A stretch of DNA of 64,000 nt from NCBI GenBank assembly GCA_019636815.1, contig JAHBWT010000008.1, positions 1-64,000 on the forward strand, given 5' to 3'. This DNA comes from Nitrospira sp. (GTDB lineage Bacteria > Nitrospirota > Nitrospiria > Nitrospirales > Nitrospiraceae). Position numbers and translations under genes: made by a program. The notes below the pieces were generated by a model, which was given only the letters and a program-made list of their open reading frames with translations, had not been told where the DNA came from and searched no databases. Shown here piece after piece: positions 6,391 through 54,825 of this stretch; position 1 is the stretch's first letter; each line of letters opens with the position of its first letter.

Positions 6391-9285
6391 ATGATGCCAC
6401 GAATACCACTCGCCACCTACCGCTTGCAGTTTAATCGCACTTTCACCTTTCAAGACGCGACGCAAGTCATTCCGTACCTGGACGACCTTGGCATCACGGA
6501 TCTCTACTGTTCGCCCTACTTCAGGGCCGTGCCCGGTAGCCTCCACGGGTACGACGTCGTGGACCCGACGACCCTGAATCCGGAAATCGGAAGAGAAGAA
6601 GACTACCGGGCGATGATCGATGAGTTGCATGGCCGTGAAATGGGACATTTACTGGATGTGGTCCCGAATCATATGGGCATCAGCCAGCAAATCAACGCAT
6701 GGTGGCAAGACGTTCTCGAGAATGGGCCGGTCTCACCGTACGCGTCGTTTTTCGATATCGATTGGGACCCGCTCAAAGCTGAACTGCGGAACAAAGTCCT
6801 CCTGCCGATCCTTGGGAACCAATATGGGGTCGTGCTCGAAAATCAGGAATTACAGGTAGAATATCAGGACGGGCGATACATCATCCGCTACTACGAGCAT
6901 CGGCTCCCAGTGACGCCCAAATCATCGGTCCGTATCCTGACCCATCGACTCAAGGATTTCGCTGAAGCCGAGGGCGCCAGCAGCCTCCATGTGATGGAGC
7001 TGGAGAGTATCATTACAGCCCTTACGCATTTACCGGCGCGAGATGCCCGCGATCCCCAGGCAGTCGTCGAACGCTATCGGGAGAAGGAGATTATCCGTCG
7101 TCGTCTCTCATCCCTGACGGACGGTCATGCGGCCATCCGGAGTTTTCTGGACGAGAATGTAAGGCAGATCAATGGGATTAAGGGTGACCCCCGGAGCTTC
7201 GACCTGCTCGACTTGTTGCTGAACGATCAGGCCTATCGCCTGGCCGACTGGCGGGTCGCGGCCGAAGAGATCAACTACCGGAGGTTTTTCGATATCAACG
7301 AGCTGGCCGCCCTGAGAATGGAGAACCCCGAGGTCTTTGAGGCGTCGCATCAGTTGGTGTTTCGATTGTTAAGAGAGAGAGCGGTGACCGGCCTTCGGAT
7401 CGACCACGTCGACGGTCTCTACGACCCGGCCGACTATCTCCAGAAACTCCAGGGGTGGGCGAGAAAAGAATGGCCGGAGGTCGCCGACTCCGAAAGCCGT
7501 CCGCTGTATCTGATCGTCGAAAAGATCCTTGGCGCCAACGAGCGGATTCCCGAGTCATGGCCGGTTCATGGCAACACCGGATACGATTTCTTGGCTCTTG
7601 TCAACGGGCTGTTCGTGCATCGCGCGAACGAGCGATCCATCGAGGCGGCCTATGCTCGTTTCGTCGACAAGGAAGACACGTTTGAGGAGTTGGCCTACCA
7701 ATGCAAGCGGCTGATCATGAATGTCTCGATGGCCAGTGAATTGAACGTCTTGGGCCATCAACTGAATCGATTGTCGGAGCGGGATCGACGGTCTCGCGAC
7801 TATACGCTCAACAGCCTGACGCATGCGATTCGGGAGATTATCGCCTGTTTCCCCGTCTACCGGACGTATATCACGGCGTCGCCTGAGGGGATATTGGATC
7901 GAGACCGGGCCTTTATTTGGCAGGCCGTGGCGAAGGCTAAACGGCGTAATCCGGCACTCAGCGGGTTGGTATTCGAGTTTGTTCGGGATCTGCTTTTGCA
8001 AGCGGCGGATTCTCGCCAGCCGCACGATGTCGAGCGGCTTCGATTCGTCATGAAGTTTCAGCAGACGACCAGTCCGGTCACGGCGAAAGGCATCGAAGAT
8101 ACGGCGTTCTACCGGTACCACCGACTGGTTTCATTGAACGAAGTGGGTGCCGATCCACAGCACTTCGGCACGACACCCACGATGGCCCATCAACAGCTGA
8201 AGGAACGGCAGGGCCGGTGGCCGGCCACCTTGTCGGCCACCGCGACGCATGACACCAAACGAGGCGAAGATGTGCGCATGCGAATCGCGGTGCTGTCCGA
8301 AATGCCGAAGCTATGGAGCCAGCGGGTGACTCAGTGGAGCAAGGCGAATCGCAAGTGGAAGGTTTCCGGAGAGCAGGGACTGGCGCCGAGTGCGGATGAT
8401 GAATATCTCCTCTATCAAACCTTACTCGGCGCATGGCCGCCGATTCCGCTCGATGAGCAGGGGTACGAAGGGTTTTGCGAGAGAATCCAGAATTACATGA
8501 ACAAAGCGATTAGAGAAGCCAAGGTCCGTACGAGTTGGGTCAATCCGGATCACGAGTATGAAGAGGCCATGCGCCAATTTGTGGCGGGGGTTCTCAATCG
8601 ATCCGAAGCGAAAGACTTCTTTGATGATTTCCTTCCGTTCCAGCGGAAGATTGCGCAGTACGGCATGTACAACTCGCTTGCGCAGCTGCTGATCAAGATG
8701 ACAGCGCCCGGCGTGCCGGATTTCTATCAAGGCACAGAGTTCTGGGACCTCAATCTGGTGGATCCGGATAATCGTCGCCTCGTGGACTTCAGTTTGAGGC
8801 AGACCGTTTTAGCCACGTTGAGGTCAGCCGGAGACTCGGCTGAGGTCCGACAAGCCCTCTTGAACGATCTTCTGACGCATCGGGCCGACGGGCGGATCAA
8901 ACTGTGGATCACCACAAAAGGCTTGCGGTATCGCCGAGAGCATGCCGGACTGTTCCAACAGGGCGAGTACGTACCACTCCAAGCGTTTGGGCCGAAGCGA
9001 GAGCACCTCTTTGCGTTTGCACGCATTCATGGAGACCAGGCCGCGGTCGTCGTTGTCCCCCGCCTGTTGGCTGGTGTGATCGAGGATCCAACCAAGCTTC
9101 CGGTCGGCGAAAGCGTCTGGGGCGATACGAAGGTGACGATGCCTTCGTGGAAAGACGGATCTCCCTATCGGAACATACTAACCGGCAGTCAATTGGCGAC
9201 GAGGTCGGACGACGGTCGCCAGGTTATCGCCGCCGCAGAGATCCTGAGGGATTGTCCGGTCGCATTGATGGAACGGATGGCATGA
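6391..9285 (+). CDS. treY: Malto-oligosyltrehalose synthase
   Basis: A 964-residue GH13 enzyme that isomerises the reducing end of alpha-1,4-glucans into an alpha,alpha-1,1 trehalose unit. It begins with PLATYRLQFNRTFTFQDA and the TreY-specific YCSPYFRAVPGSLHGYDVVD. GH13 motifs follow: LLDVVPNHMGI (region I), GLRIDHVDGLYDP with the likely nucleophile D338, VEKILGANE with acid E377, and TATHDTKRGEDVR (region IV). The length suits the family, which carries large insertions. The usual partner TreZ is not in the window. No clear ribosome-binding site precedes the tandem ATGATG; the first is used. Confidence 0.95.
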   Translation: MMPRIPLATYRLQFNRTFTFQDATQVIPYLDDLGITDLYCSPYFRAVPGSLHGYDVVDPTTLNPEIGREEDYRAMIDELHGREMGHLLDVVPNHMGISQQINAWWQDVLENGPVSPYASFFDIDWDPLKAELRNKVLLPILGNQYGVVLENQELQVEYQDGRYIIRYYEHRLPVTPKSSVRILTHRLKDFAEAEGASSLHVMELESIITALTHLPARDARDPQAVVERYREKEIIRRRLSSLTDGHAAIRSFLDENVRQINGIKGDPRSFDLLDLLLNDQAYRLADWRVAAEEINYRRFFDINELAALRMENPEVFEASHQLVFRLLRERAVTGLRIDHVDGLYDPADYLQKLQGWARKEWPEVADSESRPLYLIVEKILGANERIPESWPVHGNTGYDFLALVNGLFVHRANERSIEAAYARFVDKEDTFEELAYQCKRLIMNVSMASELNVLGHQLNRLSERDRRSRDYTLNSLTHAIREIIACFPVYRTYITASPEGILDRDRAFIWQAVAKAKRRNPALSGLVFEFVRDLLLQAADSRQPHDVERLRFVMKFQQTTSPVTAKGIEDTAFYRYHRLVSLNEVGADPQHFGTTPTMAHQQLKERQGRWPATLSATATHDTKRGEDVRMRIAVLSEMPKLWSQRVTQWSKANRKWKVSGEQGLAPSADDEYLLYQTLLGAWPPIPLDEQGYEGFCERIQNYMNKAIREAKVRTSWVNPDHEYEEAMRQFVAGVLNRSEAKDFFDDFLPFQRKIAQYGMYNSLAQLLIKMTAPGVPDFYQGTEFWDLNLVDPDNRRLVDFSLRQTVLATLRSAGDSAEVRQALLNDLLTHRADGRIKLWITTKGLRYRREHAGLFQQGEYVPLQAFGPKREHLFAFARIHGDQAAVVVVPRLLAGVIEDPTKLPVGESVWGDTKVTMPSWKDGSPYRNILTGSQLATRSDDGRQVIAAAEILRDCPVALMERMA

Positions 9286-38670: not shown

Positions 38671-39171
38671 GTGTCCGTCTACGAGCCCATATTCAAAATC
38701 TTGAATGCAGCGGGTGTGCGGTATGTCGTGGTTGGTGGAGTTGCCGCCCTGTTGCATGGGCATGCCCGATTGACGGCGGATGTCGATCTGGCCGTCGATC
38801 TTGCGCCACAAGAAGCCCTCAAGATGATTCGTGCGTTGGCCGACAACGGCTTTCGCCCCCAAGTTCCTGTACTCGCGGAAATGTTTGCCGACCCGGCGGT
38901 TCGCGAAGAGTGGCTGCAGGAAAAGCATATGCGAGCGTTTTCCCTTGTCGACCATACTAATCCCATGCGTGTAGTCGATCTGTTGTTGCAGCCGGAAGTT
39001 CCCTTTGAGGAACTGTTGGCTCGATCCCAAAAAGGGGTTGTGGGTGAGACACCTATCAGAATTGCGTCGCTTGACGACCTCATCGCATTGAAACGGTCTG
39101 CTGGAAGACCGCAGGATTTGGCAGACGTTATGGAACTGGAGGCTATCCGGAACCGAAAGGGCGATCGTTGA
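38671..39171 (+). CDS. Nucleotidyltransferase-like protein (DUF6036/MNT type)
   Basis: A 166-residue protein with a minimal nucleotidyltransferase core: YVVVGGVAALLHGHARLTADVDLAV (GG....G...T.D.DL metal-binding Asp pair) in residues 15-45. The later LDDLIALKRSAGRPQDLADVMEL is the standard end of DUF6036/AbiEii-like nucleotidyltransferases, which often act as toxins or their modifiers. A one-base gap separates it from the next small gene, which could be its partner. GTG start; no ribosome-binding site. It lies between two copies of the gltD 3' end, a sign of acquisition. Confidence 0.78.
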   Translation: MSVYEPIFKILNAAGVRYVVVGGVAALLHGHARLTADVDLAVDLAPQEALKMIRALADNGFRPQVPVLAEMFADPAVREEWLQEKHMRAFSLVDHTNPMRVVDLLLQPEVPFEELLARSQKGVVGETPIRIASLDDLIALKRSAGRPQDLADVMELEAIRNRKGDR

Positions 39172-39172
39172 T

Positions 39173-39391
39173 ATGGCAGACAAACGTGAGGTGGCCTCAG
39201 GGGAGGAACAAACGGAACATTGGGACGCTAGTGCTCAAAGTTTGCGTTCGGCTACGATGATGGCGACGCCTACGCAACGGATAGCCTGGTTGGAGGAGGC
39301 GCTGCAGCTGGCCTATGCATCAGGGGCTTTAAAGCCGAGACGGTTTATCAGCAAAGAAGAATGGGATGCGATGGGTTCATCGTCGGAATGA
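39173..39391 (+). CDS. Small unknown protein, partner of the nucleotidyltransferase-like gene
   Basis: A 72-residue protein starting one base after the preceding stop, with AAAGGG upstream. It is polar with one helical segment (PTQRIAWLEEALQLAYASGAL) and no known motif. The arrangement of a nucleotidyltransferase followed by a short helical protein is common in toxin-antitoxin and abortive-infection pairs, where the small partner neutralises the enzyme; this is inferred from arrangement only. Its stop codon overlaps the start of the displaced gltD tail. Confidence 0.65.
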   Translation: MADKREVASGEEQTEHWDASAQSLRSATMMATPTQRIAWLEEALQLAYASGALKPRRFISKEEWDAMGSSSE

Positions 39392-39483
39392 CTGTCAAGA
39401 CGATCACTGAAGGGCGCAAGATGGCCGTGGGCATCGATAAGTACCTCCAGCCCAGAAAATCCGCCAAGCAGTCAGTGAAATAA
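39391..39483 (+). pseudogene. Displaced, diverged copy of the gltD 3' end
   Basis: The frame MTVKTITEGRKMAVGIDKYL and the following QPRKSAKQSVK parallels the gltD C-terminus (EGRKMAAGIDKYLQVGKSAK) with a conserved core of EGRKMA-GIDKYLQ--KSAK. At DNA level the two differ at many third positions, so this is an old or foreign allele and not a recent tandem copy. Both junctions share the octamer TCATCGTC just before the similarity. It marks where the upstream two-gene module entered. Confidence 0.7.
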
Positions 39484-39549
39484 GAGGGGGACCGGCTCCG
39501 GCCTCGCCAGTGCCTGTCCCTGTTCTTATTTCCAAAGCGGGCCACGTGT

Positions 39550-39735
39550 CACACATTCCGGCATTCGTTTGCCACTCATCTGCTGGAAGACGGCTGCGAC
39601 ATCCGTACGGTTCAAGAGCTCTTGAGGCACCCTGATGTACGAACGACCATGATCTACACACATGTGTTGAATCGGGGTGGAAAAGGTGTACGCAGTCCAG
39701 CCGATGCCCTGGTCCAAGGGGGAGCCCTTCGCAGC
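39550..39735 (+). pseudogene. intI: 3' remnant of an integron-type tyrosine integrase
   Basis: Reading from 39550 gives [20 protein letters not shown], then [20 protein letters not shown], then [14 protein letters not shown]. These are the last catalytic residues of a tyrosine recombinase (HxxR, H, and Tyr in MIYTHV), and NRGG.GVRSP is the characteristic tail of integron integrases; XerC/D lack it (compare the recombinase at 53.5 kb). The N-terminal ~250 residues are gone and the frame runs on without a natural stop. It points in the same direction as the cassettes downstream, the reverse of classical integrons. Confidence 0.75.
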
Positions 39736-39819: not shown

Positions 39820-39874
39820 TGCGCGACAACTGACATGCGGTATCGTCGTACTATATCGGTCAATATACTCAATA

Positions 39875-39886
39875 GTTGGGCGTCAC
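39875..39886 (+). other. Integron recombination heptamer (attI/first cassette boundary)
   Basis: GTTGGGC fits the core site GTTRRRY. With the next five bases (GTCAC) it is complementary at 11 of 12 positions to GTGACGCCCAAT at 40304-40315, over the stop of the cassette gene. A cassette's leading heptamer should be complementary to the R'' end of its own attC, as here. Confidence 0.6.
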
Positions 39887-39902
39887 ACCAAGGAGTGTCA
39901 GG

Positions 39903-40307
39903 GTGCTAAGCGACGAAGAGCAAATCCGTGGCCTTGTTGATATATGGCAATCCGCAACTAAGGCGGGCGATATTGATACCGTGCTCAGTCTCATGACTGA
40001 CGACGTAGTTTTTCTCGTGCCAGGTCGCCAACCTATGAGCAAGGCAGAGTTCGCGGCGCTTTCTCGCGTGCCTGCCGGTACCTCTCATTCGAAGTTCGAA
40101 GGCAAGTCGGAGATTCAAGAGGTTCAAATCTCGGGGGACATGGCATACCTGTGGAGCAAGCTCTCCGTGACCGTAACACCTCCCGGCGCGAGTGAGTCCA
40201 TCGAGCGAGCAGGCCATACGCTCACAATCTTTCGGCGCGTCGGTGGAAAGTGGCTGTTGGCCCGTGATGCGAACTTACTTTCCACCGTCCAGCGCCCGCG
40301 CACGTGA
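39903..40307 (+). CDS. SnoaL/NTF2-like (DUF4440-type) protein, cassette gene 1
   Basis: A 134-residue protein with the SnoaL-like cone fold pattern: [37 protein letters not shown], then [16 protein letters not shown] and [21 protein letters not shown]. Members are small isomerases, dehydratases or ligand-binding proteins; no substrate can be read here. The GTG follows AAGGAG by about 7 bases. Promoterless small enzymes of this fold are typical integron cassettes, and the gene is bracketed by complementary recombination sites. Confidence 0.8.
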
Positions 40308-40308
40308 C

Positions 40309-40503
40309 GCCCAATCCTTCGTTGCGCCCGACGGGCGCCAGCCGGCTTCTCCCGCCTCGAAAGAATCGCGGATGAAGCAAAACTCCAACAAGAGGGCCAC
40401 TTGCATCTGTTCTCCGATAGCTGGATTGCTAACGGCGATCTCACGAAGCATTCGCCTGTCCCGCGGCCGACGGACGTAAAGATCTTTGCGGGGGAGCAAA
40501 ATT
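40309..40503 (+). pseudogene. Orphan C-terminal fragment of an unknown cassette gene
   Basis: After the SnoaL stop the same frame stays open to a TAG (40501-40503). Its second part, ERIADEAKLQQEGHLHLFSD then SWIANGDLTKHSPV, looks like real protein; the first part spans the start of an attC-like site. There is no start codon with a ribosome-binding site. Probably a cassette truncated by a deletion that fused it to the SnoaL cassette. Its family is not recognised. Confidence 0.4.
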
Positions 40504-40519
40504 AGGCCTTGTGCCAGAC

Positions 40520-40606
40520 GCACAACAAGCAGTTGCAGCGGACCGTACGGAATAAAGTACCAAGTCACACGCGCCAGCGCGCGGCCGCTGAACTGCGGTG
40601 TTAGGC
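40520..40606 (+). other. attC-like recombination site 1
   Basis: GCACAAC (one mismatch to RYYYAAC) and GTTAGGC (perfect GTTRRRY) bound an imperfect inverted repeat: AAGCAGTTGCAGCGGACCG on the left pairs with CGGCCGCTGAACTGCGGTG on the right, with one extra unpaired base on the left as in attC folded strands. Total 87 bases, within the usual attC range. Confidence 0.7.
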
Positions 40607-40755
40607 CCTGGAAAAACTGGCGGGCGGCACGCGGACTGTCGATTTTCGCACACCCCATTCGATTAGAGGTAGAGCAGCACGCGGCATGAAGCTTCCGCCG
40701 GTGGGAGCTGCTCGCGTGCCCTGGAACCACGCTACAACCACAGGAGGCTAAGGCT

Positions 40756-41121
40756 ATGCGGTATATTATGATGTTCATCAAGCATCCACGTGACCACGGC
40801 GACGATCAGGCACCGCCCGCGCTCTATGAGGCGATGGGGGCGTTTGTCGAGGAGCAAACCAAGAGCGGAGCATTCATCGATGGAGCAGGTCTACAACCAC
40901 TCGCCAGGGGTACTCGCGTCCGTCTTGCCGGCGGTAAGATCACCGTCACAGACGGCCCCTTCGCCGAAGCCAAGGAGGTGGTGGGCGGCTACGCACTCAT
41001 CGAGGCCAAAACGCATGCCGATGCGGTCGCACTGGCGACCCGGTTCATGGAACTCCATCGCACTCATTGGCCAGAGTTCGAAGGCGAATCCGAGATCCGT
41101 CCACTGGAGGAGACGGCCTAA
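40756..41121 (+). CDS. YCII-related (DGPF-domain) protein, cassette gene 2
   Basis: A 121-residue protein with the YCII/DGPF core: MRYIMMFIKHP, GGKITVTDGPFAEAKEVVGG (DGPFxExKE signature) and DAVALATRFMELH. AGGAGG stands 8 bases before the ATG. Family members are small dimeric ferredoxin-like proteins, often fused or adjacent to ECF sigma factors; function is unclear. It occupies one integron cassette: the stop codon TAA lies inside the attC R'' heptamer GCCTAAC, which is exactly complementary to the cassette's leading GTTAGGC. Confidence 0.85.
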   Translation: MRYIMMFIKHPRDHGDDQAPPALYEAMGAFVEEQTKSGAFIDGAGLQPLARGTRVRLAGGKITVTDGPFAEAKEVVGGYALIEAKTHADAVALATRFMELHRTHWPEFEGESEIRPLEETA

Positions 41122-41214
41122 CCAACGGCTGAAGCTGACCGGGGCCGCGATCCTGTTTCTCCGAGCTTCGACGTTCTTGCAGGCGGCCCCGGCAGTTTAG
41201 CCGTAGTGTTGGAC
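41116..41214 (+). other. attC recombination site 2
   Basis: Outer heptamers GCCTAAC (41116-41122) and GTTGGAC (41208-41214) both fit the consensus. Between them lies a long imperfect inverted repeat: CGGCTGAAGCTGACCGGGGC on the left pairs with GCCCCGGCAGTTTAGCCG on the right, extended by CCGC/GCGG. Length 99 bases with a roughly 30-base apical loop. This is the clearest attC site of the window. Confidence 0.85.
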
Positions 41215-41286
41215 CGTCAACGAGGGATCGATGACTTCATCCGGGAACGGCGCTGACTCTAACTCTAATCACGATGGAGGAGCAAC

Positions 41287-41772
41287 ATGACGAAGATCGC
41301 AAAGAACACGATTTGCCTTTGGTACGAACGCGATGCCGAAGAGGCGGCACGGTTCTACGCCAAGACCTTTCCCGATTCGTCCGTCGGCGCGGTGCATCGC
41401 GCACCGGGCGACTTTCCGTCGGGTAAGCAGGGAGACGTGTTGACAATCGAGTTCACCGTTATGGGCATTCCCTGCCTGGGGCTTAACGGTGGGCCCGAGT
41501 TCAAGCACAATGAAGCATTCTCGTTCCAAGTTGCCACCGAAGATCAGGCCGAGACCGATCGTTATTGGAATGCGATCGTCGGCAATGGCGGCCAAGAGAG
41601 CGAGTGCGGTTGGTGCAAAGACAAGTGGGGCATCTCCTGGCAGATTACGCCAATCGCGTTGACCAAGGCATATACCAGCCCCGATCGCTCTGTCGCCAAG
41701 CGAGCGTTTGATGCAATGATGACGATGAAAAAAATCGACATCGCCGCGATCGAGGAGGCGGTTCGTGGCTAG
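41287..41772 (+). CDS. VOC-superfamily (PhnB-like) protein, cassette gene 3
   Basis: A 161-residue protein of the PhnB/'3-demethylubiquinone-9 3-methyltransferase' family, a vicinal-oxygen-chelate fold. It starts KNTICLWYERDAEEAARFYA after GGAGGAGCAAC, then GDVLTIEFTVMGIPCLGLNGGPEFK, and ends with WGISWQITP, a hallmark of the family. Despite the name, members are not methyltransferases; activities are mostly unknown. It follows attC site 2 directly and has no promoter of its own, so it is probably the third cassette. Confidence 0.85.
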   Translation: MTKIAKNTICLWYERDAEEAARFYAKTFPDSSVGAVHRAPGDFPSGKQGDVLTIEFTVMGIPCLGLNGGPEFKHNEAFSFQVATEDQAETDRYWNAIVGNGGQESECGWCKDKWGISWQITPIALTKAYTSPDRSVAKRAFDAMMTMKKIDIAAIEEAVRG

Positions 41773-53461: not shown

Positions 53462-54448
53462 ATGACCACGGCTCATTCATCGGTTCTGCTGTTGGATCCT
53501 CTGGTTGAGCGATATCTGAGTCAGCTGCGGGTTGAAGGAGGGTTGGCGAACAATACGCTGGAGTCCTATCGGCGAGATCTGTTCCGACTGCAGCGGTACT
53601 TGCTGCGGCATCGATTGAGCATGAGCGATGTCGTGCCACCGCCCATCATACGGTCGTTTCTGGCTTCGCTGAAGCAGGAGTCGCTTGCGGCATCATCAGT
53701 GGCCCGGATGTTGTCGGCGCTGCGTGGATGGTATCGGTTTCTCGCCCGCGAGAACATCTTGAACGTCAACCCTCTCCGCGATGTGGCGGTCGCGCGACGA
53801 TCGGTCCGATTACCGAAGACGTTGACTCTTCAGGAAGTGACGGCGTTGCTTGAGATGCCGGTTCGCGGTCACGCAGAGGATCGCCGTGACCGTGTGATGC
53901 TGGAATTGCTCTATGCGTCAGGGCTTCGGGTGTCAGAGCTGGTTGGATTGACTCTTTCGCAGATCGATCTGGATCTCGGTTGCCTGTGTGTAATGGGGAA
54001 GGGCGCCAAGGAACGAATCGTGCCGATGGGACAGACGGCACGAGACTTGTTGGTCGAGTATCTCGAACAGGTCCGACCGACGCTCCTCAAACGCCGAGCC
54101 TCTCGCAACGTGTTTGTCAGTCGGCGAGGGCACAAACTGACGAGACAAGGATGTTGGAAGCTGCTGTCATTGCGCGCGCGACGGGCGGGGATCTTCAAGC
54201 CCATCTCACCGCACATGCTCCGCCATTCGTTTGCCACTCATTTGCTTGAAGGTGGCGCTGATCTCCGCACGGTGCAAGCGATGCTAGGGCATGCTGATAT
54301 CGGGACGACTCAGATCTATACACACGTAGACCGTCGCCGATTGAAAGAGGTTCATCGACAATTTTTCCCTCGGCAACTCCGCCACCGACGTGGAGCTGGA
54401 CCGAGCAAGAGAAGGCACGAACAACAACGCGGTGTGTCTGACAAATGA
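53462..54448 (+). CDS. xerD: Tyrosine recombinase XerC/XerD
   Basis: A 328-residue site-specific recombinase that resolves chromosome dimers at dif. The N-terminal SAM-like domain has VERYLSQLRVEGGLANNTLESYRRDL. The catalytic residues are all present: Arg in LYASGLRVSELVG, Lys in [27 protein letters not shown] (HxxR), MLGHADI (His) and nucleophile Tyr in IYTHV. QGCWKLLSLRARRAGI matches XerD more than XerC, but the call is soft. It stands alone upstream of two tRNA genes. Confidence 0.92.
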   Translation: MTTAHSSVLLLDPLVERYLSQLRVEGGLANNTLESYRRDLFRLQRYLLRHRLSMSDVVPPPIIRSFLASLKQESLAASSVARMLSALRGWYRFLARENILNVNPLRDVAVARRSVRLPKTLTLQEVTALLEMPVRGHAEDRRDRVMLELLYASGLRVSELVGLTLSQIDLDLGCLCVMGKGAKERIVPMGQTARDLLVEYLEQVRPTLLKRRASRNVFVSRRGHKLTRQGCWKLLSLRARRAGIFKPISPHMLRHSFATHLLEGGADLRTVQAMLGHADIGTTQIYTHVDRRRLKEVHRQFFPRQLRHRRGAGPSKRRHEQQRGVSDK

Positions 54449-54531: not shown

Positions 54532-54607
54532 GGGCGGATAGCTCAGTTGGGAGAGCGCTGCCCTTACAAGGCAGAGGTCACAGGTTCGATCCCTGTTCCG
54601 CCTACCA
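54532..54607 (+). tRNA. tRNA-Val (anticodon TAC)
   Basis: Acceptor GGGCGGA/TCCGCCT (first pair G-T), D-arm GCTC..GAGC, anticodon stem CTGCC/GGCAG around CTTACAA (anticodon TAC), T-arm ACAGG-TTCGATC-CCTGT, discriminator A and encoded CCA. All arms pair. Confidence 0.97.
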
Positions 54608-54747
54608 GCGAGAATAGTTCTAGTCTGGTATGGAGGGACAGGAAGGGTCCTGCAGAGTTGAGGTTCTCTTCCTCGCTCACAAGGTTGATCGGCGACCGTT
54701 GATGTTGTCTTGCTGTTCTCAATATTCCGCCATAAGGTAGATAATAC

Positions 54748-54825
54748 GGGGCCGTCGTTCAGCCTGGTTAGGACGCCAGATTGTCAATCTGGAGGTCGCG
54801 GGTTCAAATCCCGTCGGCCCCGCCA
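54748..54825 (+). tRNA. tRNA-Asp (anticodon GTC)
   Basis: Acceptor GGGGCCG/CGGCCCC, anticodon stem CCAGA/TCTGG around TTGTCAA (anticodon GTC), T-arm CGCGG-GTTCAAATCCCG-type with TTCAAAT loop, discriminator G typical for Asp, and encoded CCA. Confidence 0.97.

Follow-up and report, generated by a model that had tools for sequence, protein, structure and literature searches.

A probable YCII/DGPF gene cassette with its own ECF42-type promoter-like element in a decayed chromosomal integron of Nitrospira sp.

Is the unit around the YCII-related (DGPF) gene of this Nitrospira contig an integron cassette, and if so, how did it come to its present place, can it still move, and what does it carry besides its gene? 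The window, that is, the whole 64,000-nucleotide stretch of DNA analysed here, was described in an earlier note as holding a cassette that had integrated as a circle and could probably still be mobilised in trans. In our joint reading, in which we have high confidence, this is a standard integron cassette with an ECF42-type element of its own, lying in a decayed chromosomal integron (Table 1). The damaged integrase, the attI site and the promoter-like element go beyond what the earlier note had described.

Table 1. Positions of the integron-related features in the window
Feature	Position	Strand	Basis or detail
IntI C-terminal stub, first ~255 residues absent	39532..39711	+	TIGR02249 positions 256-315, E 1.3e-29
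attI, crossover G39875/T39876, TATACTCAATAG followed by TTGGGC	39847..39881	+	conserved 29-bp block
First cassette, SnoaL-like/SgcJ-EcaC family gene	39876..40315	+	PF14534 E 1.3e-15; TIGR02246 E 1.1e-16
attC of preceding damaged cassette	40520..40606	+	model R2 48.8 bits, E 1.1e-10
YCII/DGPF gene cassette, crossover to crossover	40601..41208	+	exact R'/R'' complementarity, attC both sides
ECF42-type promoter-like element TGTCGA-N17-CGAT	40637..40663	+	93-119 nt before ATG, inside cassette
YCII-related (DGPF) protein, 121 aa	40756..41121	+	PF03795 E 1.1e-10
attC of YCII cassette	41116..41214	+	model R2 51.2 bits, E 2.5e-11; fold z -4.36
attC of YCII cassette, boxes	R'' GCCTAAC 41116-41122; R' GTTGGAC 41208-41214	+	
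VOC / 3-dmu-9_3-mt family gene, ORF 41287-41772	unit 41209..41772	+	PF06983 E 1.5e-50

Core heptamers and attC hairpins

Exactly complementary heptamers had been reported at the two ends of the cassette, and they are indeed there: GTTAGGC (40600-40606) and GCCTAAC each occur a single time in the 64-kb window, and the complementarity of the cassette start with its own R'' box extends to 8 bp without mismatch (GTTAGGCC and GGCCTAAC). The TAA stop codon of the YCII gene (41119-41121) lies within GCCTAAC, as had also been noted. The limits given earlier hold for the positions of the heptamers, but the mobile unit is 40601-41208 rather than one that starts at 40600, because the crossover falls between G and TT.

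As a stand-alone statistical test the complementary heptamers were rejected. At spacings of 300-1200 bp the window contains 4,657 inverted 7-mer pairs, and thus heptamer complementarity is meaningless alone and counts only together with attC. Within that set, GTTAGGC/GCCTAAC is alone in being of the GTTRRRY type. Among 19 adjacent attC pairs, drawn from decayed arrays and including some false pairs, five have an exact heptamer match, as against 7.8% of random pairings.

The attC sites were located with a covariance model (R2) built from six attC sites outside the window and none of the window's own; model R1 had included the window's attC sites, which made it circular for the window, hence the use of R2. 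Over the 64 kb, R2 recovers exactly two sites, both on the plus strand, and its two matches in 298 kb of other DNA are weak, one of them lying within the integron array of relative G011. The R' box of the left site forms the left boundary of the YCII cassette, and its R'' box, GCACAAC, is one base off RYYYAAC. The site 3' of the YCII gene has one box of the RYYYAAC and one of the GTTRRRY type, and its inner boxes pair. Its inverted arms, which the earlier note had put at more than 20 bases with few mismatches, measure 24 nt (41125-41148) and 22 nt (41183-41204), with a single mismatch and two additional bases in the 5' arm.

For the bottom strand of 41110-41220 the folding energy is -30.5 kcal/mol, and none of 200 shuffles folds as well. 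A comparison of bottom-strand with top-strand energy was dropped as a sign of attC direction; since the top strand of the YCII attC folds about equally well, direction is read from the extrahelical bases and not from energy. Folding the bottom strand of 41116-41214, the check that had been proposed for this site, reveals the two canonical extrahelical bases in the T-N6-C arrangement, with the inner boxes paired. They project from a single side of the folded bottom strand at both sites of the window; the pattern is perfect at the left attC and has one mismatch within N6 at the YCII attC. Seven attC sites from the host genome and its relatives share a common fold (six-pair stem, bulge, six pairs, bulge, inner stem), with compensatory changes at 14 of its 18 pairs.

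The arrays of relatives G237 and G271 contain attC sites 85-86% identical to that of the YCII cassette, behind other genes. Sites of the same identity, loop included, were observed at L148 9256-9353 and L149 8190-8289, where they end different cassettes adjoining gltD in two other genera; one reading frame of this attC family reads NQRLKLTGAAIL..LQAAPA.

A decayed array beside gltD

Upstream of the cassettes, the IntI stub scores below the TIGR02249 family cut-off and, over 59 aa, has 78% identity with the intact integrase of relative G040. The attI block (39847-39875, 29 bp) is 93% conserved in G011, where homology ends exactly at the core G, and related blocks ending in G/TT were found 3' of intI in relatives G237, G002, G017 and G039 and on host contig 56. 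In the first cassette, the SnoaL-like ORF spans 39876-40307, or begins at a GTG at 39903; the core GTTGGGC at 39875 shows one mismatch to the R'' box GCCCAAT (40309-40315), and the remainder of the attC is lost. Between this cassette and the first attC lies a remnant (40316-40519), in which a core-like GTTGCGC at about 40321, set against the GCACAAC of the attC, suggests a cassette start and deletion of the interior of the first attC. On the other side, the VOC unit starts at the crossover of the YCII attC; an attC of its own was not found, there being no GTCCAAC downstream, and the unit was not found in the same slot in 12 relatives.

The order of the relic is therefore IntI stub, attI, SnoaL-like cassette, damaged cassette, YCII cassette and VOC gene. 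The stub and the cassettes point in the same direction, and in 14 of the 14 integrons or remnants examined the integrase, read toward attI, is codirectional with the cassettes. The locus is not a complete integron, which would have an intact intI by attI and cassettes, as family-model residues 256-315 are what remains; it is a CALIN (two or more attC sites inside 4 kb and no complete integrase), with its sites 510 bp apart and intI reduced to a stub.

The YCII cassette is inserted at G/TT and is absent from the same place in relatives. In G033 the whole segment 39528-41880 is missing, its sequence matching up to 39527 and again from 41881, and in G033, G004, G031, G037 and others the gltD and PilZ/DUF5069 flanks have no attC between them. 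First windows on the gltD-PilZ slot in 12 relatives gave no attC, and a second model gave a weaker site in G011. Integron remnants adjoin gltD in G011, G237 and G271, and attC sites similar to ours occur in the G237 and G271 arrays, so that, judged by sequence, the gltD-PilZ slot has the appearance of a long-standing integron site in the chromosome.

That 40601-41208 is a cassette inserted by integron recombination, as first proposed in the earlier note, is well supported by the comparison of sequences: attC sites flank it on both sides, the core heptamers match, both sites have the T-N6-C bases, attI and the IntI stub lie upstream, and relatives lack such a unit at this place.

Other traces of insertion and of integrons were observed in the window and the host genome. 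The 3' end of gltD occurs a second time at 39403-39527, downstream of a nucleotidyltransferase/72-aa gene pair (38671-39391), an order also seen in G033; the pair thus seems to have entered at the gltD end first, and the integron segment later. A tyrosine recombinase ORF (355 aa, 53540-54352) stands just before two tRNA genes (54532-54822) and is a possible island boundary. On contig 97 (L134, 2960-9403, minus strand) there is a second array of cassettes, which has six attC sites and lies by intI and gltD fragments; in it another YCII gene (6843-7127) forms a cassette; the ECF42-type element was not found there. On contig 56 (L136, 4910-6080) a wrecked integrase gene is followed by an attI-like block, with an attC near the contig end.

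The gene and its promoter-like element

The YCII protein is 81% identical to a homologue of Aidingimonas halophila, a distant bacterium. A dN/dS of 0.09 between the two genes shows that selection has acted on the protein through most of their divergence. At the DNA level the match covers 40636-41122, starting one base ahead of the promoter element and stopping where the R'' box ends, and the Aidingimonas non-cassette homologue thus appears to share just the promoter element and the gene; an attC sought beside it was not found. The gene ends in GCCTGAC in Aidingimonas versus GCCTAAC in the cassette; either the terminal bases of the gene itself supplied part of the R'' box, or the copy in Aidingimonas was once a cassette. 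According to the earlier note, finding the same gene without flanking sites in relatives would speak against a cassette. Taken literally, such copies exist, in Aidingimonas and Rhodanobacter, but they do not overturn the identification, as they look like ordinary non-cassette homologues. The Aidingimonas homologue provides a concrete case for how ordinary genes become cassettes. A search for the YCII cassette in relatives gave, outside its own genome, similarity at the level of the gene only; its attC had no match among plasmids, plasmid-borne YCII homologues are all below 60% identity, and the viral-contig search returned no viral contig.

The element within the cassette has the form TGTCGR-N17-CGWY upstream of a DGPF gene, which makes it a predicted ECF42 promoter. 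Promoters of Sinorhizobium meliloti assigned to RpoE10 (ECF42) read TGTCGG-N17-CGTC; at the S. meliloti YCII gene the motif and the mapped start overlap, and no dependence on RpoE10 was observed (PMC6180224). YCII-domain genes regularly neighbour ECF42 factors (PMC8999054). The motif with exactly N17 is present upstream of 47 of 78 homologues from many phyla, with a background of 2.6% in pieces drawn at random from the loci concerned. With a matrix derived from the homologues, 40637-40663 is the top-scoring site of the window, a ranking that is partly circular, as the set was chosen by pattern and includes the Aidingimonas sequence, a close relative of the cassette.

The host genome encodes one sigma factor with a DUF6596 extension (contig 142, 421 aa), which is taken as ECF42-type. 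A scan of its locus found no copy of the motif, and hence we infer the link between this sigma factor and the cassette. A native DGPF-AHSA1-VOC-like operon on host contig 124 has TGTCGA-N17-CGAC. In a literature search with most subscription journals outside its coverage, and therefore weak, we found no YCII cassettes and no ECF-type promoters in cassettes.

We propose that the YCII cassette would be a promoter-plus-gene unit, transcribed probably through the host's ECF42-type sigma factor and not from Pc, as the motif, its conservation and the gene content of the host suggest. Its general form, that cassettes can package a gene with an alternative-sigma promoter so that a captured gene joins the ECF42 regulon of its new host at once, we advance tentatively, at a little under even chances. 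That such entry would be independent of Pc and of array position is put forward just as tentatively. A serious competitor, if a somewhat doubtful one, is that TGTCGA-N17-CGAT has been inherited as a remnant and has no function in this host, its gene being transcribed by read-through or silent. The lack of the element at the host's own ECF42 locus, the capture of the cassette from a distant lineage and the decay of the integron are all consistent with this. However, the host retains a sigma factor of the ECF42 type as well as a native operon that has this element, and the reading frame is intact with a low dN/dS against the distant homologue, a constraint that may predate capture.

Mobility and likeness to known systems

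Excision has been tested with other attC sites than those of the window, reportedly by Larouche and Roy. In such tests an extrahelical spacing of six was optimal, T-N6-C sites were excised efficiently by IntI1, and several other integrases excised T-N6-C better than T-N6-G (PMC3053210). As both of our sites are of the T-N6-C type, mobilisation of the YCII cassette in trans by a supplied integrase, which the earlier note had thought probable, is plausible, and these tests on other sites are its strongest support. A complete integrase was sought in the host assembly, which is 95% complete and may miss an intact intI copy, and none was found; there are intI fragments on contigs 122, 56 and 73 and smaller traces elsewhere. 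Present-day mobility would thus rely on another source, and an integrase above the family cut-off is present in eight of 99 relatives.

It is unlikely, though well worth weighing, that this is a former cassette that has become fixed and has decayed beyond movement. Neighbouring cassettes are missing parts of their attC sites, the integrase is a stub and the left R'' box is off consensus, all of which would fit such a fate; yet both crossover boxes, both stems and the two extrahelical bases of each site are intact, and known integrases excise T-N6-C sites with efficiency (PMC3053210). A bidirectional terminator, or else a dispersed palindromic repeat, with heptamers matching by chance, is a very improbable reading of the hairpin at 41116-41214: the hairpin is strong and G+C-rich, stands right behind a stop codon and has copies 85% identical in related genera, and the window abounds in inverted 7-mers (4,657 pairs), but there are two like-bulged sites in tandem and in one orientation, the G237 and G271 copies also lie within cassette arrays by gltD, an integrase stub and attI stand upstream, and the heptamer pair is the sole one of its type.

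Under the cassette reading, IntI would have inserted the YCII cassette as a circle, through the folded bottom strand of its attC, into a chromosomal integron beside gltD, which afterwards lost its integrase gene and portions of its array. The flanking attC sites seem to retain everything known to be needed for excision, and an integrase acting in trans probably could excise the cassette.

The confirmed cassette anchors a decayed integron in a group for which a large survey listed only two CALINs (PMC9024848). Since both ECF42 factors and DGPF operons have a wide distribution, cassettes could, provided that the promoter functions, transfer regulated expression between phyla.

The decayed CALIN of Candidatus Nitrospira inopinata likewise has two attC sites, a chromosomal location and no complete integrase nearby (PMC9024848), whereas at our locus an integrase stub and attI are still recognisable. 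Integrons of Treponema (PMC3607928) have the same arrangement as here, with intI transcribed toward attI; ours differ in belonging to another lineage, in occupying several chromosomal places and in being mostly wrecked in the host genome.

The cassette itself shares with class 1 and chromosomal integron cassettes the R''/R' boxes, the palindromic attC with extrahelical bases six apart, a start complementary to R'', and one short gene in one orientation. Unlike usual cassettes, it has a leader of about 150 nt that holds a sigma-specific promoter-like element. By its sequence, therefore, the cassette appears ordinary for its kind, and the likely new part is the ECF42-type promoter-like element inside it. 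Reviewed cassette-borne promoters are described as constitutive or of the housekeeping type, in contrast to the element here, which is of ECF42 type and, if functional, would be regulated by an alternative sigma factor of the host. The cmlA, ereA, qnrVC and toxin-antitoxin cassettes are alike in having a promoter within the cassette, which renders the gene independent of Pc (PMC8876359). With the known associations of ECF42 and DGPF (PMC6180224, PMC8999054) our case has in common a DGPF gene behind a TGTCGR-N17-CGWY promoter; in contrast to those, the promoter-like element and its gene are here enclosed in a mobile cassette, away from sigma factor genes.
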